64,000 nucleotides of DNA from the NCBI GenBank assembly GCA_031308135.1, contig JAHLJT010000631.1:147442580-147506579 (forward strand), read 5' to 3'. Source of the stretch: Acheta domesticus (lineage: Eukaryota; Arthropoda; Insecta; Orthoptera; Gryllidae). The notes under the pieces were generated by a model. It had not been told where the DNA came from. It ran no database searches and saw only the letters and a list, made by a program, of their open reading frames with translations. Position numbers and translations under genes: made by a program. Of the stretch, positions 2,951-64,000 are shown piece by piece; position 1 is the first letter of the stretch; each line of letters starts with the position of its first letter.

Positions 2951-2989
2951 GTGGTATCTAGAATGGCACTGCGATGGCTTCGAGTGCCG

Positions 2990-8173: not shown

Positions 8174-9129
8174 ATTTAAAGAAGTTGGTTTTCGAACGCG
8201 ATAACACTCGCATGCTAAGCGACGTGTTACCTAACGGAGCTACGTCTCCCTTTTGCGGATTTTCAAGGTAATAGCTTTATATATCACAACATTTGTGTTC
8301 TATTTAGAAAAATTCATAGAAATATATAGAAGTTAAGTATCGAACGCGATAACACTCGCATGCTAAGCGAGCGCTTTACTAATGGAGCTGCGTCTCACCT
8401 TTGCAGATTTTAAAGGTAATAGATTTATATATCACAACATTATTGTTCTATTTTGAAAAATTCATAGAAATTTAAATAAGTTGCGTATCGAACGCGATTA
8501 CACTCGCATGCCAGGCAAGCGCTCTACTAACGGAGCATCGTCTATCGTTAGCGGATATTGAAGGTAATAGACTTATATATCCCAATATTTTTGTTCTATT
8601 TTGAAAAATTCATAGAAATTTAAAGAAGTTGGTTATCGAACGCGATAACCTTTGCATGCTAAGCAAGCGCTTTTCGAATGTAGCTACGACTCCCCTTTGC
8701 GGATTTTGAAAGTATTGGCCTTATATAACACAACATTTGTGTTCTATTTAGAAAAATTAATGGAAAGTTAAAGAAGTTAGGTATCGAACGCGATAACACT
8801 CGCATGCTAAGCAACAGCTTTACCAGTGGAGCTACGTCTCTCCTTACCGGGTTTTGAAGTTATTTGCCTTATATATCATAACATTTGTGTTCTATTTAGA
8901 AAAATTCATAAGAATTTAAAGAAGTTGGGTATCGAACGCAATAGCACTCGCATGATAAGCAAGCGCTTTACTAATGGAGCTATGTCCCTCCTTTGCGGAT
9001 TTTTAAGGTAATAGCCTTATATACTTTAACATTTGTGTTGTATTGAGAAAAATTCATAGAAATTTATAGAATTTGGGTATCGAACGCGTTAACACTCGCA
9101 TGTTAAGCAAGTGCATTACTAACGGAGCT

Positions 9130-9562
9130 ACGTGTTTCCTTTGCGGATTTTGAAGATATTAGCCTTATATAACACAACATTTGTGTTCTATTTAGAAAAT
9201 TCCATCGAAATTAAAAGAAGTTGGGTATCGAACGCGATAATACTCGCATGCTTAGCAAGCGCTTTACTAATGGAGCTACGTATCCCTTCGCGGACTTTGA
9301 AGTTATTTGCTTTATGTATCACAACATTTGTGTTCTATTTAGAAAAATTCATTGAAATTTATAGAAGTTGGATCGAACGCGATAACACTCGCATGCTAAG
9401 CAAGCGCATTGCGAATGGAGCTGTGCTTCCCCTTTGCGAAATTTTAAGGTATTAGCATTATATATCACAACATTTGTGTTCTTTTTAGAAAAATTCACAG
9501 AAATTTAAAGAAGTGGGGCATCGAACGCGATATCACTCGCATGCTAAGCAAGCGCTTTACCA
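9130..9562. repeat. Satellite block duplicated at 11632-12064
   Basis: About three consecutive units, including the variant TTATATAACACAAC at 9165 and an unusual run (TGGAGCTGTGCTTCCCC, then GTGGGGCATCGAACGCGAT), recur in the same order 2502 bp downstream. This marks a local multi-unit duplication. Confidence 0.65.
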
Positions 9563-12433
9563 ATGGAGCAACGAGTCTCCTTTGCGAATTTTGAAGGAAC
9601 TAGCCTTATATATCATAACATTTATGTTCTATTTAAAACAATTTATAGGAATTTAAAGAAGTTGGGTATCGAACGCGACACCACTCGCATGATAAGCAAG
9701 CGCTTTACTAATGGAGCTACGCCTTCCCTTTGCGGACTTCGAAGATATTAGCCTAATATATCACAAAATTTTTTTCTATTTAGAAAAATTCATAGAAATT
9801 TAAAGAATTTGGGTATCGAACGCGATAACACTCGCTTGCAAAGAAACCGCATTACTAATGGAGCTACGCCTTCCTTTTGCTTATTTTGAAGGTATTAGGC
9901 TTATATATCACAACATTTGTGTTCTATTAAGAAAAATTCATAGAAATAGAAGAAGAAGATACGTATCGAACGAGATAAAATTCGCATGAAGAGCAAGCGC
10001 TTTACTAATAGAGCTACGTCTATCCTTTGCGGATTGTAAAGGTATTAGTCTTATATATCCCAACATTTGTGTTCTATTTAGAAAATTTCATGGGAATTTC
10101 AAGAAGTTGGGTATCGAACGCGATACCACTCGCATGCTAATCAAGCGCTTTACTAATGGAGCTACGCCTCCCCTTTACGGACTTAGAAGGTATTAGCTTT
10201 ATATATCACAACATTTGCGTTCTATTTAGAAAAATTCATAGAAAGTTAAAGAAGTTGGTTATCGAACGCGATAACACTCAGATGCAAAGCAACCGCTTTA
10301 CCAATGGAACTACGTCTCTCCTCCACGGATTTTGAAGGTATTAGCGTTATATATCATAACATTTGTGTTCTATTTTGAAAAATTCATAGAAATTTAAAGA
10401 AGGTGGGTATCGAACGCGATAACACTCGCATGCTAAACAAGCGCCTTACTATTGGAGCTAGGTTTCGCCTTTGGGAATTTTTAAGGTATATATAAATATA
10501 ATTTTTAAGGCCTTATATATCACAACATTTGTGTTCTATTTAAAATAATTCATAGAAAGTTAAAGAACTTGGGTATCGAACGCGGTAACACTCACATTCT
10601 AAGCAACCACTTTACTAATTGAGCTACGCCTCCCCTTTGCGGATTTAAAAAGGTATTAGCTTCATATACCAAAACATTGGTATTCTATTTATAAAAATTC
10701 ATAGAAGATTAAAGAAATTGGGTATCGAACGCGATAACATTCGCATGCTAAGCAAACGCTTTACTAAAGGAGCTACGCCTCCCCTTTGCTGATATTGAAG
10801 GTCTATTTAGAAAAATTCTTAGCAATTTGAAGTATTTTAATTTCGAACGCCATACCACTCGCATGCTAAGCAAGCGCTTTACCAATGGAGCTACAACTCC
10901 CCTTTGCTGATTTTGAAGGTATTAGCCTTATATATCACATCACTTGTGTTCTATTTAGAAAAATTCATAGAAATTTAAAGAAGTTGGGTTTCGAAGGCGA
11001 TAACATTCGCATGCTAAGCAAGCGCTTACTAATGGAGCTACGCCTTTCCTTTGCGGATTTTGTAGGTATTAGCCTTAAATATCACAACATTTGTGTTCTA
11101 TTTGAAAAAATTCATAGTAATTTAAAGAAGTTGGGTATCCAACGCGATAACAATCGCATGCAAAGCAAGCGTTTTACTAATGGAGCTACGCGTTCCCTTT
11201 GTGGATTTAGAAGGTATTATCCTTATGTATCACAACGTTTGTGTACTATTTAGAGAAATTCATAGATATTTAAAGAAGTTAGGTATCGAACGCGATAACA
11301 CTCGCATGCTAAGCAAGCGCTTTACTAAAGGAGATACGTTTCTCCTTTGCGGGTTTTGAAGGAAATAGCCTTATATATCACAACGTTTGTGATCTATTTA
11401 GAAAAATTCATAGAAATTTATAGAAGTTGGGTATCGAACGCAATTACATCTGCATGCTAGGCAAGCGTTTTACTAATGGAGCTACGCCTCCCCTTTGCGG
11501 ATTTTGTAGGTATTAACCTTATATATCACAACATTTGTGTTCTATTTAGAAAAATTCATAGTAATTTAAAGAAGTTGGGTATCCAACGCGATAACACTCG
11601 CATGCTAAGCGAGCGCCTTACAAATGGAGATACGTGTCTCCTTTGCGGATTTTGAAGGTATTAGCCTTATATAACACAACATTTGTGTTCTATTTAGAAA
11701 ATTCCATCGAAATTTAAAGAAGTTGGGTATCGAACGCGATAACACTCGCATGCTTAGCAAGCGCTTTACTAATGGAGCTACGTATCCCTTCGCGGACTTT
11801 GAAGTTATTTGCTTTATGTATCACAACATTTGTGTTCTATTTAGAAAAATTCATGGAAATTTATAGAAGTTGGATCGAACGCGATAACACTCGCATGCTA
11901 AGCAAGCGCATTGCGAAAGGAGCTGTGCTTCCCCTTTGCGAAATTTTAAGGTATTAGCATTATATATCACAACATTTGTGTTCTTTTTAGAAAAATTCAC
12001 AGAAATTTAAATAAGTGGGGCATCGAACGCGATATCACTCGCATGCTAAGCAAGCGCTTTACCAATGGAGCTACGCCTCGCCTTTGCGGATTTTGAAGGT
12101 ATTAGCCTCATATATCACAACATTTGTGTTCTATTTAGAAAAAATCATAGAAATTTATAGAAGTTCGGTATCGAACGCGATAACACTCGCATGCTAAGCA
12201 AGCGCTTTACTAATGGAGCTACGCCTCCCCTTTGGGGATTTTGCAGGTATTAGCCCTAAATAACACAACATTGTGTTCTATTTAGAAACATTCATAGTAA
12301 TATAAAGAAGTAGGTTATTCAACTCGATAACACTCGCATGCTAAGCAAGCGCTTTTCTAATGAAGCTACGGCCCCCCTTTGCGGATTTTGTAGGTATTAG
12401 CCTTCTACATCGCAACATTAGTGTTCTATTTAG

Positions 12434-12438
12434 AAAAA
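12434..12438 (-). terminator. Candidate Pol III terminator (TTTTT) in the representative unit
   Basis: Five A on the plus strand give TTTTT on the minus strand, about 24 nt beyond the B box. That would end a transcript of roughly 90 nt starting near 12525. The A5 motif (TAGAAAAATTC) is part of the consensus and recurs in most units. Confidence 0.45.
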
Positions 12439-12460
12439 TTCATAGAAATTTTTAGAAGTT

Positions 12461-12525
12461 GGGTATCGAACGCGATAACACTCGCATGCTAAGCAAGCGC
12501 TTTACTAATGGAGCTACGCCTCCCC
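12461..12525 (-). other. Representative tRNA-Ala(AGC)-like core of the satellite
   Basis: A near-consensus unit. Minus strand from 12525: GGGGAGGC, then GTAGCTCCATTAGTAAAGCG (D-arm/A-box region), anticodon arm CTTGC-TTAGCAT-GCGAG with AGC at 12490-12488, then the B-box core GTTCGATAC near 12470-12462. Compared with the usual animal tRNA-Ala pattern (GGGGATGTAGCTCAGATGGTAGAGCG ... TTAGCAT ... ATCGATGCCC), the order and spacing match well. The anticodon stem pairs fully with one G-U. The acceptor 5' strand has two extra bases, the D stem has one mismatch, and the T stem pairs poorly. It is therefore a tRNA-derived relic rather than a working tRNA. A transcript, if any, is inference. Confidence 0.75.
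12462..12470 (-). promoter_or_regulatory. Pol III B-box match in the representative unit
   Basis: GTTCGATAC fits the eukaryotic B-box core GWTCRANNC at every position. It lies about 33 nt downstream of the A-box-like TAGCTCCATTAG, a normal tRNA-gene spacing. The A box itself has two departures from TRGCNNARYNGG. The same B-box core, as plus-strand GTATCGAAC, recurs in most of the units of the array. TFIIIC binding is inferred. Confidence 0.6.
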
Positions 12526-12639
12526 TTTGCGGATTTTGAAGGTACTTGCCTTATATATCACAACATTTGTGTTCTATTTAGAAAAATTCATACAAATTTA
12601 TAGAAGTTTGGTATCGAACGCGATAACACTCGCATGCTA

Positions 12640-14913
12640 AGCAAGCGCTTTACTAATGGAGCTACGCCTCCCCTTTGCGGATTTTGAAGGTATTAGTCTT
12701 ATATATCACAACATATGTGTTCTATTTAGAAAAGTTCATAGAAATTTAAAAAAGATGGGTATCGAACGCCATAACACTCGCATGCAAAGCAAGCGCTTTA
12801 CTAATGGAGCTACGAGCCTCCTTTGCGGATTTTGAAGGTATTAGCCTTATATATCACAACTTTCGTGTTCTATTTAAAAAAATACATTGAAATTTTAAGA
12901 ATTTGTGTATCGAACACGATAACACTCGCATGGTAATCAAGCGCTTTACTAATGGAGCTACGTCTCCCCTTCGGGGATTTTGAAGGTATTTGCCTTATGT
13001 ATCACAACCTTTGTGATCTATTTAGAAAAATTATTAGAAATTTAAAGAAGTTGGTTATCGAACGCGATAACACTCGCATGCTAATCAAGCGCTTTACTAA
13101 TGGAGCTACGGCTCTCCTTTGCGCATTTTGTAGGTATTTTTTTCTGTATCACAACCTTTGTGTTCCATTTAGAACAATTAATAGAAATTGAATGAGGTTG
13201 GGTATCGAACGCGATAACACTCGTATGCTAAGCAAGCGCAATACTAATGGAGCTACGCCTCCCCTTTGCGACTTTTATTGGTATTAGCCTTAAATATCAC
13301 AACATGTGTTCTATTTTAAAAAATTCAAAATAATTTAAAGAAGTTGGATATCCAACGCGATAACACTGGCATGCTAAGCACGCGATTTACTAATGCATCT
13401 GCGCCTCCCTTTTAAGATTTTGAATGTATTAGCCTTATGTATCGCAACAATTGTATTCTATTTAGAGATATTCATAGAAATTTAAAGAAGTTAGGTATCG
13501 AACGCAATAACACTCGCATGCTAAGCTAGCGCTTTAGTAATGGAGCTACGTGTCTCCTTTGCAGATTTTGAAGGTAGTAGCCTTATATATCACAACATTT
13601 GTGTTCTATTATAAAAAATTCACAGAAATTTAAAGAAGTGGAGCATCGAACGCGATAACACTCGCATGCTAAACAAGCATTTCACTAATGGAGCTACGCC
13701 TCCCCTTCGCTGTTTTTGAAGGTATTAGCCTTATATATCACATCATTTGTGTTCTATTTAGAAAAATTTGTTGTAATTTAAAGAAGTTGGGTATCGAACG
13801 CGATATCTCTCGCATGCTAAGCAAGCGCTTTACTAATAGAGCTAAGACTCCCCTTTGCGGATTTTGAAGGTATTAGTCTTATATATTACAACATTTGTGT
13901 TCTATTTAGAAAAATTCGTAGAAATTTATAAAAGTAGGATAACGAACGCGATAACACACGCAAGCTAAGCAAGCGCTTTGCGAAAGGAGCTGTGCTTCCC
14001 CTTTGCGAAATTAAAAGTATTAACCTTATATATCACAACATTTGTGTTCGTTTTAGAAAAATTCACAATAAATTTAAAGAAGTGGGACATCGAAAGCGAC
14101 AACACTCGCATGCTAAGCAAGCGCTTTACTAAAGGAGCTACGCCTCGCCTTTGCGGTTTTTGTAGGTATTAGCCTTAAATATCACAACATTTGTGTTCTA
14201 TTTAGAAAAATTCATAATAATTTAAAGAAGATGGGTAACCAACGCGATAACACTGGCATGCAAAGCAAGCGCTTTACTAATGGAGCTACGCCTCCCCTTT
14301 GAGGATTTTGAAGGTATTAGCGTTACGTATCGGTACATTTGTGTTCTATTTAGAGAAATTCATAGAAAATTAAAGAAGTTGGGTATCGAACGCGATAACA
14401 CTCGCATGCAAAGCAAGCGCTTTACTAATGGAGCTGCGTGTCTCCTTGGCGGATTTGGAGGTATTAGCTTTATATATCACTATATTTGTGTTCTATTTAG
14501 AAAAATTAATAGAAATTTAAAGAAGTTGGGTATCGAACGCGATAACACTCGCATGCTAAGCAAGCGCATTACTAATGGAGCTACTCCTCCCCTTTGCGGT
14601 TTTTGTAGGTATTAGCCTTAAATTTCACAACATTTGTGTTTTATTTAGAAAAATTCATAGTAATTTAAAGTAGTTGGGTATCCAACGCGACAACACTCGC
14701 ATGCTAAGCAAGCGCTTTACTAATGGAGCTACGCCTCCGCATTGAATATTTTGAAGGGGTTAGCCTTATGTATCACAACATTTGTGTTTATTTAGAGAAA
14801 TTCATATATATTTAAAGAAGTTGGGTATCGAACGCGATAACACTCGCATGCCAAGCAAGCGCTTTACTAATGGAGCTACGTGTCACCTTTGCGAATTTTG
14901 AGGTATTAGCCTT
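12640..14913. repeat. 2.3-kb satellite block duplicated at 16480-18748
   Basis: Some 15 units recur with a constant offset of 3834 bp (for example CACAACATATGTG at about 12706 and 16540, and the GTAGGTATTTTTTTCTGTATC variant near 13130 and 16964). Only a few substitutions separate the copies, far fewer than between neighbouring units, so the amplification unit here was a multi-monomer block. Boundaries are approximate. Confidence 0.75.
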
Positions 14914-14939
14914 ATATATCACAACTTTTGTGTTCTATT

Positions 14940-16440
14940 TTAAAAAATTCATAATAATTTAAAGAAGTCGGATATCCAACGCGATAACACTGGCATGCTA
15001 AGCAAGCGATTTACTAATGCAGCTGCGCCTCCCCTTTAAGTTTTTGAAGGTATTAGCCTTATGTATCGCAACAATTGTTTTCTATTTAGAGATATTCATA
15101 GAAATTTAAAGAAGTCGGGTATCGAACGCTATAACACTCGCATGCTAAGCAAGCGCTTTACTAATGGAGCTACCCCCCCCTTTGTGGATTTTGAAGGCTT
15201 TAGCGTTATATATCACAAAATTTGTATTCTATTTAGAAAAGTTCATAGAAATTTAAAAAAGATGTGTATCGAACACGATAACACTTGCATGCAAATCAAG
15301 CGCTTTTTAATGGAGCTACGTCTCTCCTCCGCGGATTTTGAAGGTATTTGCATTATGTATCACAACCTTTGTGTTATATTTAGAAAAATTAATAGAAAGT
15401 AAAAGAATTTGGGTATCGAACGCGATAACACTCGCATGCTAAGCAAGCGCTTTACTAATGGAGCTACGCCTCCCCTTTGCGGTTTTTGTAGGGATTAGCC
15501 TTAAATATCACAACATTTGTGTTTTATTTAGAAAAATTCATAGTAATTTAAAGAAGTTGGGTATCCAACGCGTTAACACCAGTATGCTAAGCAAGCGCTT
15601 TACTAATGGAACTACGCCTCCCCATTTAAGATTTTGAAGGTATTAGCCTTATGTATCACAACATTTGTGTTTATTTAGAGAAATTCATATAAATTTAAAG
15701 AAGTTGGGTATTGAACGCGATAACACTCGCATGCTAAGCAAGTGCTTTACTAATGGAATTACGTATCTCCTTTGCGGAATTGGAGGTATTAGCCTTATAT
15801 ATCAAAAGATTTGTGTACTATTTAGAAAAATCCATAGAAATTTAAAGAAGTTAGGTATCGAACGCGATGACAATCGCATGCTAAGCAAACGCTTTACTAA
15901 CGGAGCTACGTATCCCTTCGCGGATATTGAAGGTATTTGCCACATATATCACAACATTCGTGTTCAATTTAAAAAAATTCATAAAAATTTAAAGAAGTTG
16001 GGTATCGAACACGATAACACTCGCATGCAATTCAAGCGCTTCACTAATGGAGCTACGTTTCTCCTTCCCGGAATTTGAAGGTATTTGCCTTATGTATCAC
16101 AACATTTGTGTTCTATTTAGAAAAATTAATAGAAATTTAAAGAAGTTGGGTATCGAACGCGATAACACTCGCATGCGAGCAAGGGCTTTACAAATGGAGC
16201 TACGTGTCGCCTTTGCGGATTTAGAGGTATAAGCCTTATCTATCACAACATTTGTGTTCTATTTTGAAATATCTAAAAAAATTTAAAGAAGTTGGGTATC
16301 AAACGCGATAACACTCGCATGCTAAACAAGCGCTTTACTAATGGAGCTACGTGTCTCCTTTGCGGTTTTTGGAGGTATTAGCCATATATATCACAACATT
16401 CGTGTTCTATTTATAAAAAATTATTAGAAATTTAAAGAAG
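14940..16440. repeat. Satellite block duplicated at 20400-21605
   Basis: Variant units recur at 20400-21605. Examples are AAGTCGGATATCCAACGCG near 14967 and 20425, and AACACCAGTATGC near 15586 and 20750. The offset is 5458 bp at the left end and 5164 bp from about 15460 on. The two-unit (294 bp) difference is a contraction in the second copy or an expansion in the first. Confidence 0.7.
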
Positions 16441-19400
16441 TTTGTTATCGAACGCGATAACACTCGCATGCAAAGCAAGAGCTTTACTAATGGAGCTACG
16501 CCTCCCCTTTGCGGATTTTGAAGGTATTAGTCTTATATATCACAACATATGTGTTCTATTTAGAAAAGTTCATAGAAATTTAAAAAAGATGGGTATCGAA
16601 CGCCATAACACTCGCATGCAAAGCAAGCGCTTTACTAATGGAGCTACGAGCCTCCTTTGCGGATTTTGAAGGTATTAGCCTTATATATCACAACTTTCGT
16701 GTTCTATTTAAAAAAATACATTGAAATTTTAAGAATTTGTGTATCGAACACGATAACACTCGCATGGTAATCAAGCGCTTTACTAATGGAGCTACGTCTC
16801 CCCTTCGGGGATTTTGAAGGTATTTGCCTTATGTATCACAACCTTTGTGATCTATTTAGAAAAATTATTAGAAATTTAAAGAAGTTGGTTATCGAACGCG
16901 ATAACACTCGCATGCTAATCAAGCGCTTTACTAATGGAGCTACGGCTCTCCTTTGCGCATTTTGTAGGTATTTTTTTCTGTATCACAACCTTTGTGTTCC
17001 ATTTAGAACAATTAATAGAAATTGAATGAGGTTGGGTATCGAACGCGATAACACTCGTATGCTAAGCAAGCGCAATGCTAATGGAGCTACGCCTCCCCTT
17101 TGCGACTTTTATTGGTATTAGCCTTAAATATCACAACATGTGTTCTATTTTAAAAAATTCAAAATAATTTAAAGAAGTTGGATATCCAACGCGATAACAC
17201 TGGCATGCTAAGCACGCGATTTACTAATGCATCTGCGCCTCCCCTTTAAGATTTTGAAGGTATTAGCCTTATGTATCGCAACAATTGTATTCTATTTAGA
17301 GATATTCATAGAAATTTAAAGAAGTTAGGTATCGAACGCAATAACACTCGCATGCTAAGCTAGCGCTTTAGTAATGGAGCTACGTGTCTCCTTTGCAGAT
17401 TTTGAAGGTAGTAGCCTTATATATCACAACATTTGTGTTCTATTATAAAAAATTCACAGAAATTTAAAGAAGTGGAGCATCGAACGCGATAACACTCGCA
17501 TGCTAATCAAGCATTTCACTAATGGAGCTACGCCTCCCCTTCGCTGTTTTTGAAGGTATTAGCCTTATATATCACATCATTTGTGTTCTATTTAGAAAAA
17601 TTTGTTGTAATTTAAAGAAGTTGGGTATCGAACGCGATATCTCTCGCATGCTAAGCAAGCGCTTTACTAATAGAGCTAAGACTCCCCTTTGCGGATTTTG
17701 AAGGTATTAGTCTTATATATTACAACATTTGTGTTCTATTTAGAAAAATTCGTAGAAATTTATAAAAGTAGGATAACGAACGCGATAACACACGCAAGCT
17801 AAGCAAGCGCTTTGCGAAAGGAGCTGTGCTTCCCCTTTGCGAAATTAAAAGTATTAACCTTATATATCACAACATTTGTGTTCGTTTTAGAAAAATTCAC
17901 AATAAATTTAAAGAAGTGGGACATCGAAAGCGACAACACTCGCATGCTAAGCAAGCGCTTTACTAAAGGAGCTACGCCTCGCCTTTGCGGTTTTTGTAGG
18001 TATTAGCCTTAAATATCACAACATTTGTGTTCTATTTAGAAAAATTCATAATAATTTAAAGAAGATGGGTAACCAACGCGATAACACTGGCATGCAAAGC
18101 AAGCGCTTTACTAATGGAGCTACGCCTCCCCTTTGAGGATTTTGAAGGTATTAGCGTTACGTATCGGTACATTTGTGTTCTATTTAGAGAAATTCATAGA
18201 AAATTAAAGAAGTTGGGTATCGAACGCGATAACACTCGCATGCTAAGCAAGCGCTTTACTAATGGAGCTGCGTGTCTCCTTGGCGGATTTGGAGGTATTA
18301 GCTTTATATATCACTATATTTGTGTTCTATTTAGAAAAATTAATAGAAATTTAAAGAAGTTGGGTATCGAACGCGATAACACTCGCATGCTAAGCAAGCG
18401 CATTACTAATGGAGCTATTCCTCCCCTTTGCGGTTTTTGTAGGTATTAGCCTTAAATTTCACAACATTTGTGTTTTATTTAGAAAAATTCATAGTAATTT
18501 AAAGTAGTTGGGTATCCAACGCGACAACACTCGCATGCTAAGCAAGCGCTTTACTAATGGAGCTACGCCTCCGCATTGAATATTTTGAAGGGGTTAGCCT
18601 TATGTATCACAACATTTGTGTTTATTTAGAGAAATTCATATATATTTAAAGAAGTTGGGTATCGAACGCGATAACACTCGCATGCCAAGCAAGCGCTTTA
18701 CTAATGGAGCTACGTGTCACCTTTGCGAATTTTGAGGTATTAGCCTTATGTATCACAACATTTGTGTTCTATTTAGAAAAATCCATAGAAATTTAAAGAA
18801 GTTGGTTATCGAACGCGATATCACTCGCATGTTAAGGAAGCGCTTTACTATTGGGACTATGCTTCCCGTTTGCGAACTTTGATGGTTTTAGCCTTATATA
18901 TCACCACATTTGTGTTCTATTTGGAAAAATTCACAGAAATTTACAGAAGTGGGGCATTGAACGCGATAACATTCGCATGCTAAGTAAGCACTTTACTAAT
19001 GGAGCTACGCTTCTCGTTTGCGGATTTTGAAGGTTTTAGCCTTGTATATCACAACATTTGTGTTCTATTTAGAAAAATCAGTAGAAAATTAAAGAAGTTG
19101 GGTATCGAACGCGGTAACACTCGCTTGCTAAGCAAGCGCTTTACTGATGGAGCTACGTATCTCTTCGCGGATTTTGAAGGTATTTGCCTTATATATCGCA
19201 ACTTTCGTGTCCTAATTAAAAAAAATCCATAGAAATATAAAGAATATGGGTATGGAACACGATAACACTCGCATGCTAATCAAGCGCTTCACTAATGAAG
19301 CTACGTCTCTCCCTCGCGGTTTTTGAAGGTTTTTGCCTTATGTATCACAACTTTTGTGTTCAATTTAGAAAAATTAATAGAAATATAAAGAATTTGGGTA

Positions 19401-21984
19401 TCGAACGGGATAACACTTGCATGCTAAGCAAGCGCTTTACTAATGGAGCTAAGGGTCTCCTTTGCGTGTTTGGAGGTATTAGCCTTATATATCACTACAT
19501 TTGTGTTCTATTTAGAAAAATCCATAGAAATTTAAAGAAGTTGGGTATCGAACGCGATAACACTCGCATGCTAAGCAAGCGCTTTACTAATGGAGCTACG
19601 TCTCCCCTTCGCTGATATTGAAGGTATTTGCCTTATGTATCACAACCTTTGTGTTCTATTAAGAAAAATTAATAGAAGTTTAAAGAAGTTGGGTATCGAA
19701 CGCAATAACACTCGCATGCTAAGCAAGCGCTTTCATAATGGTGTTACGCCTCCCCGTTAAAGATTTTGAAGGTATTAGCCTTGTGTATCACAACATTTGG
19801 GTTTATTTAGAGACATCCATATAAATTTAATGAAGTTCGGTATCGAACGCGATAACACTCGCATGCTAAGCAAGCGCTTTACTAATGGAGCTACGTTTCT
19901 CCTTGGCGGATTTGGAGGTATTAGCCTTATATATCACTATATTTGTGTTCTATTTAGAAAAATTAATAGAAATTTAAAGAAGTTGGGTATCGAACGCGAT
20001 AACACCCGCATGCTAAGCAAGCGCATTACTAATGGAGTTACGCCTCCCCTTTGCGGTTTTTGTAGGTATTAACCTTAAATATCAAAACATTTGTGTTTTA
20101 TTTAGAAAAAATCATAGTAATTTAAAGTAGTTGGGTATCCAACGCGACAACTCTCGCATGCTAAGCCAGCGCTTTACTAATGGAGCTACGCCTCCCCATT
20201 GAATACATTAAAGGTATTAGCCTTATGTACCACAACATTTGGGTTTATTTAGAGAAATTCATATATATTTAAAGAAGTTGGGTATCGAACGCGATAACAC
20301 TCGCATGCCAAGCAAGCGCTTTACTAATGGAGCTACGCTTCCCCTTTGCGACTTTTGTTGGTATTAGCCTTAAATATCACAACTTTTGTGTTCTATTTTA
20401 AAAAATTCATAATAATTTAAAGAAGTCGGATATCCAACGCGATAACACTGGCATGCTAAGCAAGCGATTTACTAATGCAGCTGCGCCTCCCCTTTAAGTT
20501 TTTGAAGGTATTAGCCTTATGTATCGCAACAATTGTTTTCTATTTAGAGATATTCATAGAAATTTAAAGAAGTCGGGTATCGAACGCTATAACACTCGCA
20601 TGCTAAGCAAGCGCTTTACTAATGGAGCTACGCCTCCCCTTTGCGGTTTTTGTAGGGATTAGCCTTAAATATCACAACATTTGTGTTTTATTTAGAAAAA
20701 TTCATAGTAATTTAAAGAAGTTGGGTATCCAACGCGTTAACACCAGTATGCTAAGCAAGCGCTTTACTAATGGAACTACGCCTCCCCATTTAAGATTTTG
20801 AAGGTATTAGCCTTATGTATCACAACATTTGTGTTTATTTAGAGAAATTCATATAAATTTAAAGAAGTTGGGTATTGAACGCGATAACACTCGCATGCTA
20901 AGCAAGTGCTTTACTAATGGAATTACGTATCTCCTTTGCGGAATTGGAGGTATTAGCCTTATATATCAAAAGATTTGTGTACTATTTAGAAAAATCCATA
21001 GAAATTTAAAGAAGTTAGGTATCGAACGCGATGACAATCGCATGCTAAGCAAACGCTTTACTAACGGAGCTACGTATCCCTTCGCGGATATTGAAGGTAT
21101 TTGCCACATATATCACAACATTCGTGTTCAATTTAAAAAAATTCATAAAAATTTAAAGAAGTTGGGTATCGAACACGATAACACTCGCATGCAATTCAAG
21201 CGCTTCACTAATGGAGCTACGTTTCTCCTTCCCGGATTTTGAAGGTATTTGCCTTATGTATCACAACATTTGTGTTCTATTTAGAAAAATTAATAGAAAT
21301 TTAAAGAAGTTGGGTATCGAACGCGATAACACTCGCATGCCAAGCAAGGGCTTTACAAATGGAGCTACGTGTCGCCTTTGCGGATTTAGAGGTATAAGCC
21401 TTATCTATCACAACATTTGTGTTCTATTTTGAAATATCCAAAAAAATTTAAAGAAGTTGGGTATCAAACGCGATAACACTCGCATGCTAAACAAGCGCTT
21501 TACTAATGGAGCTACGTGTCTCCTTTGCGGTTTTTGGAGGTATTAGCCATATATATCACAACATTCGTGTTCTATTTATAAAAAATTATTAGAAATTTAA
21601 AGAAGTTTGTTATCGAACGCGATAACACTCGCATGCTAAGCAAGAGCTTTACTAATGGAGCTACGCCTCTTCTTTATGTATATTGTAGCTATTGGTCTTA
21701 TATATCACAACATTTGTGTTCTATTTAGAAATATTCATAGTAATGAAAAGTAGATGGGTATCCAACGCGATAACACTCGCATGCTAAGCAAGCGCTTAAC
21801 TAATGGAGCTACGTCTCTCCTTCGCGGATTTCTAAGGTATTTGCCTTATGTATCACAACATTCGTGTTCTATTTAGAAAAATTATTAGAAATTTAAAGAA
21901 GTTGTTTATCGAACGCGATAACATTCGCATGCTAACCAAGCGCTTTACTAATGAGGCTATGCTTCCCCTTTGCGAACATTGAAG

Positions 21985-35189: not shown

Positions 35190-35193
35190 ATAT
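35190..35193. repeat. 4-bp target-site duplication (left), ATAT
   Basis: ATAT directly left of the LTR is repeated at 36573-36576. Both fall in the TTATATATCAC linker motif of the satellite, so one copy is the original target. AT-rich repeats make chance agreement possible, but the restored unit is exactly full length. Confidence 0.7.
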
Positions 35194-52000: not shown

Positions 52001-55000
52001 GTATCGAACACGATAACACTCGCATGCAAATCGAGCGCTACACTAATGGTTCTACGTCTCTCCTTCGCGGATTTTGAAGGTATTTGCTTTATGTATCAAC
52101 CATTTGTGTTCTATTTAGAAAAATTAATAGACATTTAAAGAAGTTGGGTATCGAACGCGATAACACTCGCATGTTAAGCAAGCGCTTTACTAATGGAGCT
52201 ACGCCTCGCCTATGCGGTTTTTGTTGATATTAGCCTTAAATATTACAACATTTGTGTTTTATTTAGAAAAATTCATAGTAATTTAAAAAGTTGGGTATCG
52301 AACGCGATAACACTCGCATGCTAAGCAAGCGCTTTACTTATGGAGCTACGTGTCTCCTTTGCGAATTTGGAGGTATTAGCCTTATATATCACATCATTTG
52401 TGTTCTATTTAGAAAAATTCATAGAAAGTTAAAGAAGTTATGTATCGAACGCGATGACACTCACATACTAAGCTTTAGCGATGGAGCTACGTCTCTCCTT
52501 CACGGATTTTGAAGGTTTTAGCGTTATATATCATAACATTGGTGTTCTATTTAGAAAAATTCATAGAAATTTAAAGAAGTTGGCTATCGAACGGGATAAC
52601 ACTCGCAAGCTAAGCATGCGTTTCACTAATGGAGCTACGCCTTTCCTTTGCGGGTTTTGAAGGTATAACCCTTATATATCACAACTTTTGTGTTCTATTT
52701 AGAAAAATTCATAGAAATTTAAAGAAGTTAGTTATCGAACGCGATAACACTCGCATGCTAAGCAAGCGCCTTACTAATGGAAGTGCGTCTCACCTTTGCG
52801 GATTTTTAAGGTAATAGACTTATACATCACAACATTTTTGTTTTATTATGAAAATTTCTTAGAAATTTAAAGAAGTTGGGTATCGAAAGCCATAACACTC
52901 GCATGCTAACTAGCGCTTTACTAATGGAGCTACTCCTCCCCTTTTCGGATTTTAAAGGTATTAGCTTTATAAATCACAACATTTGTGTACTATTAAGAGA
53001 AATTCATAGAAATTTAATGAAGTTGCGTATCTAACGCGATAACACTGGCATGCTAAGCAAGCGCTTTTCTAATGGAGCTACGTCTCCCCCTGGCGGCTTT
53101 TGTAGGTATTAGCCTTAAATATCACAATATTTGTGTTCTATTTAGAAAAATTCATTATAAATTAAAGAAGTTGGGTATCCAACGCGATAACACTGACATG
53201 CTAAGCAAGCGCTGTACTAATAAGTCTACGCCTCCCCCTAGGGGCTTTTGTAGGTATTAGCCTTAAATATCACAACATTTGTGTTATTTTTAGAAAAATT
53301 CACAGAAATTTAATGAAGTGGGGCATCGAACGCGACAACACTCGCATGCTAAGCAAGCGCTTTACTAATAGAGATCCGCCTCGCCTTTGCGGATTTTGAA
53401 GGTATTAGACTTATATATCCCAACATTCGTGTTCTATTTGGAAAAAATCATAGAAATTTAAAGAAGTTGGGTATCGAACGCGATAACATTCGCATTCAAA
53501 GCAAGCGCTTTACTACTGGAGCTACGTGTCTCCTTTGCGGATTTTGAAGGTATTAGCCTTGAATATCACAACATTTGTGTTCTATTAAGAAAAATTCACA
53601 GAAATTTAAAGAAGTAGAGCATCGAACGCGATAACACTCGCATGCTAAGCAAGCGCTTTACTAATGGAGCTACGTGTCTCCTTTGCGGTTTTGGAGGGAT
53701 TAGCCTTATATATAACAATATTTGTGTTGTATTTAGAAAAATCCATAGTAATTTAAAGAAGTTGGGTATCGAACGCGATAACACTCGCATGCTAAGCAAG
53801 TGCTTTACTAATGGAGCTACGTGTTTCCTTATCGAATTATGAAGGTATTCGCCTTATATATCACAACATTTGTGTTCTATTTAGAAAAGTTCATAGACAT
53901 TTAAAAAAGATGGGTATCGAACGCGATAACACTCGCATAACACTACGCCTCCTCTTGGCGGATTTTGAAGGTATTAGCCTTATATATCACAATATTTGTG
54001 ATCTATTAAGAAAAATTCATAGAAATTTAAAAAAGATGGGTATCGAACGCGATAACACTCGCATGCGAAGCAAGCGCTATACTAATGGAGCCACGTGTCT
54101 TCTATGCGGATTCTGAAGTTATTAGCCTTATATATCACAACATTCGTGTTCTATTTAAAAAAATCCATAGAAATTTAAAGAAGTTGGGTATCAAACACGA
54201 TAACACTTCATTGCTAATGAAGCGCTTTTCAAATGGAGCTACGTCTCCCCTTCGCGGATTTTGAAGGTATTTGACTTATATATCAAAACCTTTGTGTTCT
54301 ATATAGAAAAATTATTAGAAATTTAAAGAAGTTGGTTATCGAACGCGATAACACTCGCATGCTAAGCAAGCGCTTTACTAATAGTGCTACGCCTCCCCTT
54401 TGCGCATTTTGTAGGTATTAGCCTTATTTATCACAACATTTATGTTCTATTTAGAAAAATTCATAGAAATTTATAGAAGTAAGGTATCGCACGCGATAAC
54501 ACTCGCATTCTAACCAAGCGCTTTACTAATGGAGCTACGTCTCCCCTTCGCCGATTTTGAAGGTATTTGCCTTATGTATTACAACCTTTGTGTTCTATTT
54601 AGAAAATTAATAGAAATTTAAAGAAGTTGGGTATCCAACGCGATAACTCTGGCATGCTAAGCAAGCGCTTTACTAATTGAGCTACGCCTCCCCTTTGCGG
54701 CTTTTGTAGGTATTTACCTTAAAAATCACAACATTTGTGTTCTATTTATAAAAATTTATAATAAATTAAAGAAGTTGGGTATCCAACGCGATAACACTGG
54801 CATGCTAAGCAAGCGCTTTACTAATGGAGCTGTGTTTCCCCTTTGCGAATTTTGAAGGTATTAGCCCTATATATTACAACATTTTTGTTCTATTAAAAAA
54901 ATTTCACAGAAATTTAAAGAAGTGGAGCATCGAACGCGATAACATTTGCATGCTAAGCAAGCGCTTTACTAATGGAGCTACGCCTCCCCTTTGAGGCTAT

Positions 55001-56354
55001 TGAAGGTATTAGCCTTATTTATCGCAACATTTGTGTTCTATATAAAGAAATTCGTAGAAATTTAAAAAAGTTGGGTATCGAACGCGATAACTCTCGCATG
55101 CTAAGCCTGCGTTTTACTATTGGGACAATGCTATCTCTTTGCGAACTTTGATGGTATTAGCCTTATATAACACAACATTTGTGATCTCTTCAGAAAAATT
55201 CATAGAAAGTTAAAGAAGTGGAGCATCGAACACGATAACATTTGCATGCTAAGTAAGCGCTTTACTAATGGAGCTACGTGTCTCCTTTGAGGATTTCAAA
55301 GGTATTAGCCTTATTTATCACAACATTTGTGTTCTATTTAGAAAAATTCATAGAAATTTATAGAAGTTGGGTATCGAACGCGATAACACTGGCATGCTAA
55401 GCAAGCGCTTTACTAATGGAGCTACGCCTCCCCTTTGCGGATTTTGTGGGTATTAGCCTTATATATCACAACTTTTGTGTTCTATTTGGAAATATTCACA
55501 GAAGTTTAAGGAAGTGGAGCATCGAACGCTATAACACTTGCATGCAATGCAAGCGCATTACTAATGGAGCTACGTCTCCCCTTCGCGGATTTTGAAGGTA
55601 TTTGCTTTATGTATCTCAACATTTGTGTTCTATTAAGAAAATTTCACTCAAATTTAAAGAAGTGGAGAATCGAACGCGATAACACTTGCATGCTAAGCAA
55701 GCGCTTTACTAATGGAGCTACGTCTCCCCTTCGCGGATTTTGAAGGTATTTGCCTTATGTATCACAACCTTTGTGTTCTATTCAGAAAAATTATTAGAAA
55801 TTTAAAGAAGTTGGTTATCGAACGCGATAACACTCGCATGCTAAGCAAGTGCTTTACTAATGGAGCTACGCCTCCCCTTTGCGGATTTTGTGGGTATTAG
55901 CCTTATATATCACAACTTTGGTGTTCTATTTGGAAATATTCACAGAAGTTTAAGGAAGTGGAGCATCGAACGCGATAACACTTGCATGCTAAGCAAGCGC
56001 TTTACTAATGGAGCTACGCCTCCCCTTTGCGAACTTTAAAGGTATTAGCTTTATATATCAGAACATTTGTGTTCTATTTAGAAAAATTTATAGAAAATTT
56101 AAAGAAGCTGGGTATCGAACGCGATAACACCCGCATGCTAAGCTAGCGCTTTATTAATGGAGCTACGTATCCCTTCGCGGATTTTGAAAGTATTTGCCTG
56201 ATGTATCACAACTCTTGTGTTCTATTTAGAAAAATTCATAGAAATTTCTAGAAGTTGGGTATCGATCGCGATTACACTCGCATGCTAAGCATGCGTTTTA
56301 CTAATGGGACTATGCTTCTCTTTGCGAACTTTGATGGTATTAGTCTTATATATA

Positions 56355-57270
56355 CGACGATATATATGACGATGACGACGGCGACGGAGACGACGAGGGT
56401 GGAGACGACGGCGGCGGAGGCGACGACATAGGCAGCGACTTTGAGGGACGCGCCCTTTCAAGAACACTTTCAGGTGAGGAAGGGGTTCCTTAGGTTGTTG
56501 CAGGTGAACTGTCGTAGTATAATCAATAAAGAAATAGAGTTTTGGAGTCTAGTTGATGCCTGCGATCCCGACATAGTGATAGTCACTGAGTCGTGGCTAA
56601 CTGAGGAAATTGTGTCCTCTGAAATTTTTCATTCCCATTACAAGATCCTTCGGAGGGATAGAATTAGCAGAGGGGGCGGCGTCTTTATTTGCGTCAAAGA
56701 GGACATTAATATTAGATTAGAGTGGGTCAGTAGAGAGTTTGAAATGATGGGAATAGAAATTATTACGTCAGGAACTGGTTTAGAAATTATTGCATGCTAT
56801 AGGCCTCCGAGCGATGGATATGACATTTTAGATAACATCATTCAGAGAACGGGAAACGAAAATGGCCATGCTATTGTTATTGGAGGCGACTTAAATATTC
56901 CGAGCGTAAACTGGGAGGGAACCGTTAGCGAAGGGAAAGTCCAAAATTTAGGAAACGGGCTAGTCTGGGAAGAGGGTTTTGTCCAGGTAGTTCGGACCGG
57001 GACGCGACAGGATGCGATTTTGGATGTCTACCTAATTAGGCCGAAAGAACTTTTCATACCTTGTGAAGTTGTTGAGGGTATTAGTGACCACAAAGCTGTT
57101 CTTCTTGACTTAGACGGAAATATTTCAAGGAAAGGCATTACAATAGGAACGAAAGTACGGCAATACAAGAAAGCAAATGTAAGCGGGCTTCAAGGCTTCT
57201 TTAGGGAACAATATGACCGCTCTCTAAGAACAGAGGGCGGTATGGAAGAAATATGGGACGTGTTTAAAGA
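56355..57270 (+). mobile_element. LINE endonuclease fragment in the satellite, copy 2
   Basis: Counterpart of 39961-40877 at offset 16394, 916 bp, with the same junctions on both sides. By eye the two differ by about five substitutions and one single-base indel, so they derive from one insertion duplicated with the surrounding array. The first about 80 bp are GAC/GGC-rich and could encode an acidic tract in a frame different from the endonuclease. Confidence 0.85.
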
Positions 57271-57331
57271 TTTGTGTTCCTATATGAAAAATTCACAGAA
57301 ATTTAAAGAAGTGGAGCATCGAACGCGATAA
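56441..57331 (+). CDS. Open APE-type endonuclease domain of a LINE, reading into satellite
   Basis: An uninterrupted 296-codon frame. Visible endonuclease motifs are QVNCRS (N, about residue 23), TESWL (E, about 51), SRGGGVFI (about 79-86), CYRPP (about 118), GGDLN (D and N, about 148-150), LDVYLI (about 195) and SDHKAV (about 219-224). All the expected catalytic residues appear present. In intact elements this domain nicks DNA to prime reverse transcription. The frame opens at a TTG with no convincing start, and its last about 20 codons (LCSYMKNSQKFKEVEHRTR) come from satellite sequence. It is a fragment with no RT. Expression is not supported; the open state probably reflects a recent insertion. 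Confidence 0.7.
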   Translation: MRDAPFQEHFQVRKGFLRLLQVNCRSIINKEIEFWSLVDACDPDIVIVTESWLTEEIVSSEIFHSHYKILRRDRISRGGGVFICVKEDINIRLEWVSREFEMMGIEIITSGTGLEIIACYRPPSDGYDILDNIIQRTGNENGHAIVIGGDLNIPSVNWEGTVSEGKVQNLGNGLVWEEGFVQVVRTGTRQDAILDVYLIRPKELFIPCEVVEGISDHKAVLLDLDGNISRKGITIGTKVRQYKKANVSGLQGFFREQYDRSLRTEGGMEEIWDVFKDLCSYMKNSQKFKEVEHRTR

Positions 57332-60300
57332 GACTCGCATGCTAAACAAGCACTTTACTAATGGAGCTACGCCTCTCCTTTGCTGCTTTTCAACCTATTA
57401 GCCTTATATATCACAACATTTGTGTTCTATTTAGAAAAATTTATTGTACTTTAAAGAAGTGTGGTATCGAAGGCCATAACTCTCGCATAGTAAGCTAGCG
57501 CTTTACTAATGGAGCTACGCGTTCCCTTTGATGATTTTGAAGGTATTAGCCTTATATATCACAACATTTGTGTTCTATTTAGAAAAGTTCATAGAAATTT
57601 AAAAAAGATGGGTATCGAACGCGATAACACTCGCATGCTAAGCAAGTGCTGTACTAATGCAGCTACGTGTCTCCTTTGCGGATTCTGAAGGTATTAGCCT
57701 TATATATCACAACATTCGTGTTCTATTTAAAAAAAACCATAGAAATTTAAAGAAGTTGGGTATCGAACACGATAACACTCGCATGCAAATCAAGCGCTTC
57801 ACTAATGAAGCTACGTCTCTCCTTCGCGGAATTTGAAGGTATTTGCCTTATGAATCTCAACTTGTGTGTTCTATTTAGAAAAATTAATAGAAATTTAATG
57901 AAGTTGGGTATCGAACGCGATAACACTCGCATGCTAAGCAAATGCTTTACTAATGAAGCTACGCCTTCCCTTGCGGTTTTTGTAGGTATTAGCCTTAAAT
58001 ATCAAACATTTGTGTTTTATTTAAAAAAATTCATAGTAATTTAAAGAAGTTGGGTAACCAACGCGATAACACTCGCATGCTAAGCAAGCGCATTACTAAT
58101 GGAGCTACGTGTCTCATTTGCGGATTTGGAAGTATTAGCCTTATATATCACAATTGTGTTCTATTTAGAAAAATCCATAGAAACTCAAAGAAGTTGGGTA
58201 TCGAACGCGATAACACTCGCATGGTAAGCAAGCGCTTTACAAATGGAGCTACGTGTCTCCTTTGCGAACATTGATGGTTTTAGCTTTATATATCACAACA
58301 TTTGTGTTCTATTAAGAAAAATTCACAGAAATTTAAAGAAGTAGAGCATCGAACGCGATAACATTTGCATGCTAAGCAAGCACTTTACTAATGGAGCTAC
58401 GCCTCCCCTTTGCGGTTTTTGTAGGTATTAGCCTTAAATATCAAAACATTTGTGTTTTATTTAGAAAAAATCATAGTAATTTAAAGAAGTTGGGTACATA
58501 TTGCGGTAACACACGCATGCTAACCAAGCGCATTACTATTGGAGCTACGTGTCTCCTTTCCGGATTTGGAGGTATTAGCCTTATGTATCGCCACATTTGT
58601 GTTCTATTAAGAGAAATACATAGAAATTAAAAGAAGTTAGGTATCGAACGCGATAACACTCGCATGCTAAGCAAGCGCTTTACTAATGGAGCTACGTGTC
58701 TCTTTTGCAGATTTGGAGGTATTAGCCTTATGTATCGCAACATTTGTGTTCTATTAAGAGAAATACATAGAAATTTAAAGAAGTTAAGTATCGAACGCGA
58801 TAACACTCGCATGCTAAGCAAGCGCATTACTAATGGAGCCACGCCTCCCCTTTCCGGAATTTGTAAGTATTAGCCTTATATATCACAACATTTGTTTTCT
58901 CTTTAGAAAAATCCATAGAAATTTAAAGAAGTTGGGTATCGAACGCAATAACACCTGCATGCTAAACAAGCGCTTTACTAATAGAGCTACGCATCCCTTC
59001 GCGGATTTTGAAGGTATTTGCCTTATGTATCATAACATTTGTGCTCTATTATAAAAATCCATAGAAATTTAAAGAAGCTGGGTATCGAACGCGATAACAC
59101 CCGCATGCTAAGCAAGCGCTTTACTAATGAAGCTACGTATCCCTTCGCGGATTTTGAAAGTATTTGCCTTATGTTTCACAACATTTGTGTTCTATTTAGA
59201 AAAATTCATAGAAATTTCTAGAAGTTGGGTATCGATCGCGATTACACTCGCATGCTAAGCAAGCGCTTTACTAATGGAGCTACGTCTCCCCTTGGCGGAT
59301 TTTGTAGGTATCAGCCTTATATATCACAACATTTGTGTTCTATTTAGAAAAGTTCATAGAAATTTAAAAAAGATTGGTATCGAACGCGATAACACTCGCA
59401 TGCTAAGCAAGCGTTTTACTAATGGAGCTACGTGTCTCCTTTGAGGATTTCGAAGTTATTAGCCTTATATATCACAACACTCATGTCCTATTTAAAAAAA
59501 TCCATAGAAATTTAAAGAAGTTGGGTATCGAACACGATAACACTCGCATGCTAATCAAGCGCTTTACTAATGGAGCTACGTCTATCCTTCGCGGATTTTG
59601 AAGGTAATAGACGTATATATCACAACATTTGTGTTCTATTTCGAAAAATTCATAGAAATTTATAGAAGTTGGGTATCGAACGCGATTACACTCGCATAAA
59701 TAGCAAGCGCTTTACTAATGGAGCTACGCGTTCCCTTTGCGGATTTTGAAGGTATTAGCCTTATATATCACAACATTTGTGTTCTATTTAGAAAAATCCA
59801 TAGAAATTTAAAGATGTTTGGTATCGAACGCGATAACACTGGCATGCTAAACAAGCGCTTTACTAATGGAGCTACGTGTCTCCTTTGCGGCTTTTTGAAG
59901 GTATTAGCCCTATATATCACAACATTTGTGATCTATTTAGAAAAATCCATAGAAATTTAAAGAAGTTGGGGATCGAACGCGATAACACCCGCATCCTAAG
60001 CAAGCGCTTTACTAATGGAGCTACGTATCCGATCGCGGATTTTGAAAGTATTTGCCTTATGTATCACAACATTTGTGTTCTATTTAGTAAAATTCAAAGA
60101 AATTTATAGAAGATGTGTACCGAACGCGATAAAACTCGCAATAAAAACAAGCGCTTTACTAATGGAGCTATGCTTTCACTTTGCGAACTTTGAAGGTATT
60201 ACCCTTATATATCACAACATTTGTGTTCTATTAGGAAAATTCTCAGAATTTTAAAGAAGTAGAGCATCGAACGCGATAATACTCGCATGCTAAGGAAGCG

Positions 60301-63300
60301 CTTTACTAATGGAGCTACGCCTCGCCTTTGCAAATTTTGAACGTATTAGACTTATTTATCACAACATTTGTGTTCTATTCAGAAAAATCCATAAAAATTT
60401 TAAGAATTTGGGTATCGAACGCGATAACACTCGCATGCTAACCAAGCGCTTTACTAATGGAGCTACGCCTCCCCTTTGCGGTTTTTGTATATATTAGCCT
60501 TAAATATCACAACATTTGTGTTTTATTTAAAAAAATTCATAGTAATTTAAAGAAGTTGGGTAACCAACGCGATAACACTCGCATGCTAAGCAAGCGCATT
60601 ACTAATGGAGCTACGTGTCTCATTTGCGAATTTGGAGGTATTAGCCTTATATGTAACAACATTTGTGTTCTATTTAGAAAAATCCATAGAAACTCAAAGA
60701 AGTTGGGTATCGAACGCGATAACACTCGCATGGTAAGCAAGCGCTTTACAAATGGAGCTACGTGCCTCCTTTGCGAATTTGGAGGTATTAGCCTTATATG
60801 TAACAACATTTGTGTTCTATTTAGAAAAATCCATAGAAATTTAAAGAAGTTAGGTATCGAACGCGATAACACTCGCATGCTAAGCAAGCGCTTTACTATT
60901 GAGACTATGCTTCCCTTTTGCGAACATTGATGGTTTTAGCTTTATATATCACAACATTTGTGTTCTATTAAGAAAAATTCACAGAAATTTAAAGAAGTGG
61001 AGCATTGAACGCGATAACAATTGCATGCTAAGCAAGCACTTTACTAATGGAGCTACGCCTCCCCTTTGCGGTTTTTGTAGGTATTAGCCTTAAATATCAC
61101 AACATTTGTGTTTTATTTAGAAAAATTCATAGTAATTTAAAGAAGTTGGATATATAATGCGATAACACACGCATGCTAACCAAGCGCATTACTATTGGAG
61201 CTACGTGTCTCCTTTCCGGATTTGGAGGTATTAGCCTCATAAATACTACAACATTTGTGTTCTATTGAGAAAAATCCATAGGAATGTAAAGAAGTTGGGT
61301 ATCGAACGCGATAACACTCGCATGGTAAGCAAGCGCTTTACTAATGGAGCTACGTGTCTCCTTTGCGGATTTGGAGGTTTTAGCCTTATGTATCGCAACA
61401 TTTGTGTTCTATTTAGAAAAATTCATAGAAATTTATAGAAGTTGGATAACGAACGCGATATCACACGCATGCTAAGAATGCGCTTTGCGAATGGAGCTGT
61501 GCTTCCCCTTTGCGAAATTTAAAGGTATTAGCCTTATATACGACAACATTTGTGTTCTTTTTAGAAAAATTCACAGAAATTTAATGACGTGGGGCATCGA
61601 ACGCGACAACACTCGCATGCTAAGCAAGCGCTTTACTAATGGAGCCACGCCTCGCCTTTGCGGATTTTGAAGGTATTAGACTTATATATCACAACCTTTG
61701 TGTTCTATTTAGAAAAATTAATAGAAATTTAAAGAAGTTGGGTATCGAACGCGATAACACTCGCATGCTAAGCAAGCGCATTACTAATGGAGCTACGCCT
61801 CCCATTTGCGATTTTTGTAGGTATTAGCCTTAAATATCTTAACATTTGTGTTTTATTTAGAAAAATTCATTGTAATTTAAAAAAGTTGGGTATCCAACGC
61901 GATAACACTCGCATGCTAAGCAGGCGCATTACTAATGGAACTACGTGTCTCCTTTGCGGATTTGGAGGTATTAGCCTTATATATTACAACATTTGTGTTC
62001 TATTTAGAAAAATTCATATACATTTAAAGAAGTTGGATATCGAAAGCGATAACACTCGCATGCTCAGCAAGCTCTTTACGAATGGGGCTACGCTTCCCCT
62101 TTGCGAAATATGAATGTATTAGCCTTATATATCACAACATTTGTGTTCTATTAAGAAAAATTCACAGATATTTAAAGAAGTGGAGTTTCGAACGCGATAA
62201 CACTCGCATGCTAAACAAGCACTTTACTAATGGAGCTATGTCTCCCCTTCTCGGATATTGAAGGTATTTGCCTTATGTATCACAACCTTTGTGTTCTATT
62301 TAGTAAAAATATTAGAAATTTAAAGAAGTTGGCTATCGAACGCGATAACACTCGCATGCTGAGCAAGCGCTTTAGTAACGGAGCAACGCCTCCCATTTGC
62401 GGATTTTGTAGGTAATAGCCTTATATATCACAACATTTGTGTTCTATTTAGAAATATTCATAGTAATTTAAAGAAGTACGGTATCCAACGCGATAACACT
62501 CGCATGCTAGGCAAGCGCTTTACTAATGGATCTACGCCTCCCCTTTGAATATTTTGAAGGTATTAGCTTCATGTATCACAACATTTGTGTTCTATTAAGA
62601 GAAATTCATATAAATTTAAAGAAGTTGGGTATCGAAAGCGATAACACTCGCATGCTAAGCAAGCGCTTTACAAATGGAGCTACGTATCCCTTCGCGGATT
62701 TTAAAGGTATTTGCCTTATGTATCACAACATTAGTGTTCTATGTAGAAAAATTCTTATGAAATTAAAGATGTTGGATATGGAAAGCGATAACACTCGCAT
62801 GCTATGCAAGCTCTTGGGGCTATGCTTCCCCTTTGCGAAATTTGAAGGTATTAGCCTTATTTATCACAACATTTGTGTTTAGTTAGAAAAGTTGATAGAA
62901 ATTTAAAAAAGACGGGTATCGAAAACGATTACACTCGCAAGCTAAGCAAGCGCTTTACTAATGGAGCTACGTGTCTCCTTTGCGGATTTTGAAGGTATTA
63001 GCCTTATATATCACAACATTCGTGTTCTATTTAAAAAAATCCATAGAAATTTAAAGAAGTTGGGTATCGAACACGATAACACTCGCAGGCAAATCAAGCG
63101 CTTCTCTAATGGTGCTACGTCTCTCCTTCGCGGATTTAGAAGGTATTTGTCTGATGTATTACAACCTTTGTGTTAAATTTAAAAAAATCCATAGATATTT
63201 AAAGAAGTTCGGTTACGAACACCATAACACTCGCATGCTAAGCTAGCGCTTTACTAATGGGACTATGCTTCCCCTTTGCGAACATTGATGGTTTTAGCAT

Positions 63301-64000
63301 TATATATCACAACATTTGTGTTCTATTAAGAAAAATTCACAGAAATTTAAAGAAGTGGAGAATCGAACGCAATAACATTTACATGCTAAGCAAGCACTTT
63401 CCTAATGGAGCTACGCCTCTTCTTTCCGTATTTTGAAGGTATTAGCCTTATATATCACTACATTTTTTTAATATTTAGAAAAATTCATAGAAATTTAAAG
63501 AAGTTGGGTATCGAACGCGATAACACTCGCATGCTAAACAAGCCCTTTATTAATGGAGCTACGTCTCCCCTTTGCTGATTTTGAAGGTATTAGCCTTATA
63601 TATACATTTGTGTTCTATTTAGAAAAGTTCATAGAAATTTATAAAAGATGTGTATCGAACGCGATAACATGCGCATGCTAAGCAAGCACTTTACTAATGG
63701 AAATACGCCTCCCCTTTGAGGATTTTTAAGGTATTAGCCTCATGTATCGCAACATTCGTGTTCTATTTAGAGAAATTCGAAGAAATGTAAAGAAGTTGGG
63801 TATCGAACGCGATAACACTCGCATGCTAAGCAAGCGCATTACTAATGGAGCTACGTGACTCCTTTGCGGATTTTTAAGTTAGTCGCCTAATATATCACAA
63901 CATTTGTGTTCTATTTAGAAAAATCCATAGAAATTTAAAGAAGTTGGGTATCGAACGCGATAACACTCGCATGCTAAGCAAGCGCTTTACTAATGGAGCT
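57271..64000 (-). repeat. 148-bp tRNA-Ala-derived satellite, block 4
   Basis: About 45 units to the window edge, same orientation. The unit order follows 40878-50718 minus one copy of the 3.1-kb block. The last unit is cut by the window end at the D-arm part, so the array continues. Confidence 0.92.

Follow-up and report, generated by a model that had tools for sequence, protein, structure and literature searches.

A 148-bp satellite derived from tRNA-Ala(AGC), with relatives at graded stages of decay, in the genome of Acheta domesticus

Half of each unit of the satellite described here is a relic of tRNA-Ala(AGC). The satellite occupies positions 8174-64000 of the window, i.e. the whole stretch of 64,000 bp that was analysed (C392:147442580-147506579, in an assembly of 2.33 Gb). 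It was multiplied by tandem and block duplication; related repeats lie on seven large contigs, the window's own and six others, and their tRNA part is decayed to graded extents. We think it best read as a tRNA-gene-derived satellite, most likely an ordinary one and probably heterochromatic.

Results

A profile search recovered 360 head-to-tail units of ~148 bp in window 8174-64000, of which 339 cover at least 140 of the 145 model positions. This bears out the several hundred ~148-bp minus-strand cassettes claimed by the sequence-only reading, and TRF agrees: rows of 148 bp begin at 8173 (8173-25741, then several further stretches), and a single 444-bp row, equal to three units, covers 8173-64000. 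Three transposon-like pieces interrupt the array (35193-36573, 39960-40908 and 56354-57301), and the features of the window are as follows:

8174..35193, minus strand: satellite, first block of ~148-bp units (profile matches, TRF)
27487..27549, minus strand: example unit, the most tRNA-like in 8000-34000 (Rfam tRNA 22.4 bits, cut-off 29)
35194..36572, no strand assigned: solo-LTR-like insert, GC-rich (judged only from its ends, TGTAACA...TTACA, and the ATAT on either side)
36573..39960, minus strand: satellite, second block (profile matches)
39961..40907, plus strand: non-LTR retrotransposon fragment with an endonuclease reading frame (profile gap; its copy matches PF14529)
40908..56354, minus strand: satellite, third block (profile matches)
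56355..57300, plus strand: second copy of the non-LTR fragment (PF14529 match at 56432-57331)
57301..64000, minus strand: satellite, fourth block, the tract running on past the window (profile matches and flank sampling)

The tRNA sense is on the minus strand in 360/360 units, so that the single orientation claimed for all units holds within the window; it fails beyond, where the sampled tract keeps the same orientation at 147.515, 147.528 and up to ~147.538 Mb, is reversed from there to about 147.554 Mb, and then gives way to a run of N. Part of the copy number is supplied by block duplications, with offsets of ~16.4, 13.3, 3.8 and 3.1 kb; the two copies of the non-LTR fragment sit in a satellite block duplicated at an offset of ~16.39 kb.

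The 148-bp consensus was built from 317 full units (the remaining 43 were left out as incomplete), which show a mean identity of 83.8% with each other and of 90.8% with the consensus. It carries GTAGCTCCATTAGTAAAGCG, the loop TTAGCAT, GTTCGATAC and, 24 nt further on, TTTTT; all the elements initially pointed out, from the A-box-side sequence through the loop and the B-box core to the T-run at ~24 nt, are thus found in it.

Read on the minus strand, the consensus aligns without gap to a tRNA-Ala(AGC) gene of the same genome (contig C309, locus L071). The score is 65, compared with a mean of 13.3 and a maximum of 23 for 500 shuffled sequences. Among isotypes, tRNA-Ala(AGC) scores 66, tRNA-Ala(TGC) of contig C2070 scores 43 and nuclear Thr, Ser, Ile, Asn and Leu score at most 22, a comparison that covers those tRNA genes which the fetched loci contain, and hence part of all isotypes. 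Contig C2070 (1.45 Mb; L009-L012), where tRNA-Ala(TGC) stands beside tRNA-Ile(GAT), is probably bacterial, from a symbiont or a contaminant. Over the 55 core positions the window consensus is identical to the tRNA-Ala(AGC) gene at 44, and that of subfamily B, described below, at 47. The head of the satellite therefore derives from tRNA-Ala(AGC). A chance resemblance, or a different origin, would agree with the silence of Rfam and ARAGORN in the window at normal thresholds; against it stand the shuffle maximum, the isotype specificity, a related pattern with 1126 matches in the genome for 0 in the control, and sister arrays that keep GCGCCTCCA. We consider that the shuffle test, together with the sister arrays, rules it out, with virtually no probability left to it.

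The relic is worn. TRGY at the start of the A box and a T4 run at the terminator site are each present in 263/317 units, the B-box core GWTCRANNC in 200/317, and the three elements together in 156/317. An array of live tRNA genes in the window was rejected: ARAGORN finds 0 tRNAs in the window and in 0/317 units, and Rfam finds no tRNA reaching the cut-off over the whole window, the best match within 8000-34000 being that of the example unit listed above. Folding of the satellite RNA is at the level of shuffled sequences, with z of -0.27 for the window consensus and of -0.01, versus -3.01 for a real tRNA gene, so the window consensus has no stable cloverleaf. Of the acceptor and T stems, both initially described as poor, the T stem is indeed reduced to 3/5 pairs in the consensus, but the acceptor is only partly poor, with 6/7 (G-U allowed). 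By the same count the acceptor pairs at 7/7 positions in the gene, at 6, 6 and 5/7 in copies on contig C265, and at 4/7, 4/7 and 6/7 in subfamilies C, B and A. As the count for subfamily A is held up by G-U pairs, decay is plainer in the sequence than in the pairing.

The window array belongs to subfamily A. Subfamily B forms arrays on contigs C189, C149 and C6147, with a mean column conservation of 0.951, 0.981 and 0.986 respectively, compared with 0.908 in the window; these arrays are younger than that of the window. In the fetched stretches ARAGORN calls tRNA-Ala(AGC) in two units of C189 and one of C6147. It also calls two tRNA-Ala(CGC) and one tRNA-Phe(AAA) at locus L090, which we interpret as worn units in which another anticodon is read. 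At locus L073, about position 2460, arrays of subfamilies C and A meet in opposed orientation.

A pattern made of the tRNA 3' end followed by AAATTTC, with at most 3 mismatches, yielded the 1126 matches mentioned above, of which 100 places were listed. The fetched stretches of C1565, C1707 (71.07 Mb), C2357 and C2935 (63.73 Mb) are tandem repeats of 147-148 bp whose consensus keeps GCGCCTCCA exactly. The same sequence is exact in 2/4 units of a mini-array on C265; the fetched stretch of C3525 contains two units, and by eye C265 and C3525 resemble versions of one locus. Subfamilies A, B and C have lost GCGCCTCCA, their acceptor strand reading CTTCTCCA in C, CTACTTCA in B and CTTCTTTA in A. That several related arrays keep the whole 3' acceptor strand points to a full-length tRNA-Ala founder, which decayed later. 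The family was located at these positions:

C392: 147.5 of 267.2 Mb
C1707: 71.1 of 122.5 Mb
C6147: 114.2 of 225.4 Mb
C1565: 141.6 of 209.4 Mb
C2935: 63.7-67.2 of 221.8 Mb
C2357: 112.9-124.5 of 130.1 Mb
C3525: 23.9 of 105.6 Mb

Intact tRNA genes also occur in tandem in this genome. A series of 87 exact matches to the head on C1707 (2.178-2.191 Mb) advances in steps of 148 bp (146-151) and is interrupted by one gap. In three fetched pieces of this ~13-kb array (L080-L082) ARAGORN identifies 12 tRNA-Ala(AGC) genes; the units match at 96-99% and their spacer is GA-rich. Compared with the satellite spacer (2000 shuffles each), this spacer shows no significant similarity, globally (p 0.057 for B, which is borderline, and 0.106 for A) or locally (p 0.160 for B and 0.099 for A). 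At two more sites of C1707 tRNA-Ala recurs at steps of 287-293 bp. On C2935, intact tRNA-Thr(AGT) genes (L028-L038, L015-L022) form arrays with a period of 143 bp at 39.96 Mb and of 146-147 bp at 206.25 Mb, and in a third array, at 31.49 Mb, the genes are spaced by 144-147 bp or multiples; their spacers being alike by eye, we do not count the Thr arrays as mutually independent. Periods are thus 147-148 bp for subfamilies A, B and C, 148 bp for intact tRNA-Ala, 143-147 bp for tRNA-Thr and, at roughly double this length, 287-293 bp for the other tRNA-Ala.

Discussion

The relic was first proposed to be SINE-like, and the tRNA-Ala part of this proposal stands; for a SINE parent we found no candidate among the matches listed. 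A strict head pattern has 815 matches in the genome for 0 in the control, and the 100 listed are distributed over C392 (70), C189 (25), C149 (3), C265 (1) and C309 (1, the tRNA gene). Apart from this gene, all 100 sit in arrays or mini-arrays. On C392 the first listed is at 147.4509 Mb, so that, provided the listing is sorted by contig and position, as it appears to be, none of the 100 lies in the first 147.45 Mb of that contig. That a tRNA-Ala-headed SINE, rather than a tRNA gene, was tandemised is a reading to which the departures from the present tRNA-Ala genes lend some support: the subfamilies have in common a D-loop ATTAGTAA or AATAGTAA and a T-loop starting TTC, which suggests a founder already unlike today's genes, and a SINE head would fit this too. 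SINE-derived satellites are moreover known in squamates, as PMC10702118 describes, and a looser head pattern has 3863 matches, of which the first 100 were listed and placed. Against a SINE speak, besides the empty 147.45 Mb of C392 among the listed matches, the whole acceptor strand kept by several arrays and the spacer, which runs straight on from the tRNA 3' end and bears the T-run. The SINE origin thus appears unlikely; we call it only disfavoured, because 100/815 strict and 100/3863 loose matches are placed.

A gene, rather than a retrocopy, would then be the founder. The C265 copies have the discriminator base with no CCA after it, and are in this respect unlike a copy of a mature tRNA. 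Of 12 real tRNA-Ala genes that were fetched, none has flanks matching the spacer (best E 0.009, AT-rich), so that the founding gene was not found among these.

From a gene founder, the following history may be drawn. A complete tRNA-Ala(AGC), together with some 75 bp of flanking sequence in which its 3' T-run lies, would have duplicated head to tail to give the 148-bp unit. The arrays, growing probably through unequal exchange and block duplication, spread to several chromosomes and split into subfamilies, and the tRNA structure would have been lost at the acceptor strand and the T stem, the window array of subfamily A being one of the worn arrays. The Pol III promoter would be an inheritance, with no clear sign of its upkeep.

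The units might instead be functional, giving Pol III RNAs of ~90 nt or binding TFIIIC so as to serve as a barrier in chromatin or a platform at the centromere. Fission yeast centromeres have tRNA genes, and the 156 window units with A box, B box and T-run would be in line with such a role. So would the conservation of the whole A-to-B core in the window, which ranks 2/147 among circular shifts in the raw test. But this signal fades to 9/141 without the six most variable columns (10/141 base-corrected) and to 84/147 by rare variants, and four other arrays show no excess of core conservation (L069 78/148, L070 52/148, L074 54/148, L073 101/147). Head and spacer are conserved at 0.909 and 0.907 in the window units; the B box ranks 93/147 and the A box 51/147, so that the two boxes cannot convincingly be said to exceed the remaining sequence in conservation. 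Between subfamilies A and B the head has even diverged more than the spacer (9/73 versus 5/75 positions), and folding, as said, is no more stable than that of shuffled sequences. Conservation ranks, divergence and folding together give no firm sign of a selection keeping the promoter or an RNA. Concerted evolution could mask a weak selection, and as the boxes persist in roughly half of the units, some Pol III activity may remain. To our mind a Pol III function is quite improbable on these sequence grounds, and a probably heterochromatic satellite, likely devoid of function, is the reading we keep.

Satellites of this kind are already known: the window holds a head-to-tail array of many units whose tRNA-derived part carries A and B boxes, here worn. 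Besides SINE-derived satellites, PMC10702118 covers earlier tRNA-like tandem repeats from newt, Xenopus, Rana and Hydromantes, and PMC11955569 mentions fish satellites with parts of tRNA genes; in 2010, PMC2888827 gave tRNA tandem repeats as then reported from Entamoeba only. The newt PolIII/TAN (Hirt), Rana/polIII and Hydromantes Hy/polIII repeats are, as here, tandem with a tRNA-like part, and the newt and frog ones have no matching SINE according to PMC10702118. Their units are of ~360, ~250 and ~200 nt respectively compared with 148 here, and the newt repeat comes from tRNA-Glu instead of tRNA-Ala (PMC10702118). A further difference from these three is that the acceptor strand survives in full in sister arrays here, linking the repeat to a complete tRNA sequence. 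In Xenopus OAX/satellite I, a tRNA-derived part also lies within a tandem repeat, whose unit PMC10702118 deems too long for a proper satellite. The squamate satellites share with ours remnants of a Pol III-type promoter in tandem units, and some gecko units, near 143-151 nt, are close to 148; each unit there is, in the account of PMC10702118, part of a known dispersed SINE, and the terminal unit is mostly longer, whereas no such SINE appears here among the head matches listed. Tandem tRNA genes comparable to those of C1707 and C2935 are described in PMC2652664 for Entamoeba and in PMC4041453 for the human 1q23.3 tRNA VNTR, whose unit is 7.3 kb; these are arrays of tRNA genes, while the window array is a decayed satellite.

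In the open-access literature searched, we found no report of a 148-bp satellite derived from a tRNA gene or of the window array, no description of a series from intact genes to worn satellite in one genome, and none of a near-equal unit length of arrays with different spacers. The origin of a new satellite DNA is usually guessed from the end product. Here one genome has genes, intact arrays, arrays keeping the 3' end and worn arrays, so that the steps can be ordered and dated.

Intact tRNA arrays of almost the same unit length suggest that tRNA genes seeded satellites apparently more than once. A tentative extension, to which we give rather less than even credence, is that in this genome tRNA genes seed satellites recurrently, with a nucleosome-scale spacing setting the length of the unit. 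Satellites often have units of nucleosome length, as stated in PMC8122249, so the 143-148-bp period may reflect this general tendency. If the extension is true, the window would stand late in a life cycle, already decayed, while other loci of the genome still show the early stages alive. Two questions become testable: whether tandem amplification affects Pol III genes unusually easily, and whether the unit length of satellites is fixed by nucleosome spacing.

Finally, the surroundings of the array call for a few remarks. The insert at 35194-36572 may be a solo LTR, to judge from its ends only. The best named protein match of the inserted retrotransposon frame is from a termite, at 45% identity, and the best overall, at 93%, is nameless. 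A further non-LTR endonuclease frame lies at window 2183-3052 on the minus strand (PF14529 and PF03372), and a short GGTTA run at about 3255-3275; this run and the termite match both speak for an insect. A second satellite, at 4915-8173, adjoins the tRNA-derived array, to which it shows no clear similarity; its unit is of ~724 bp, in about 4.5 copies at ~87%.
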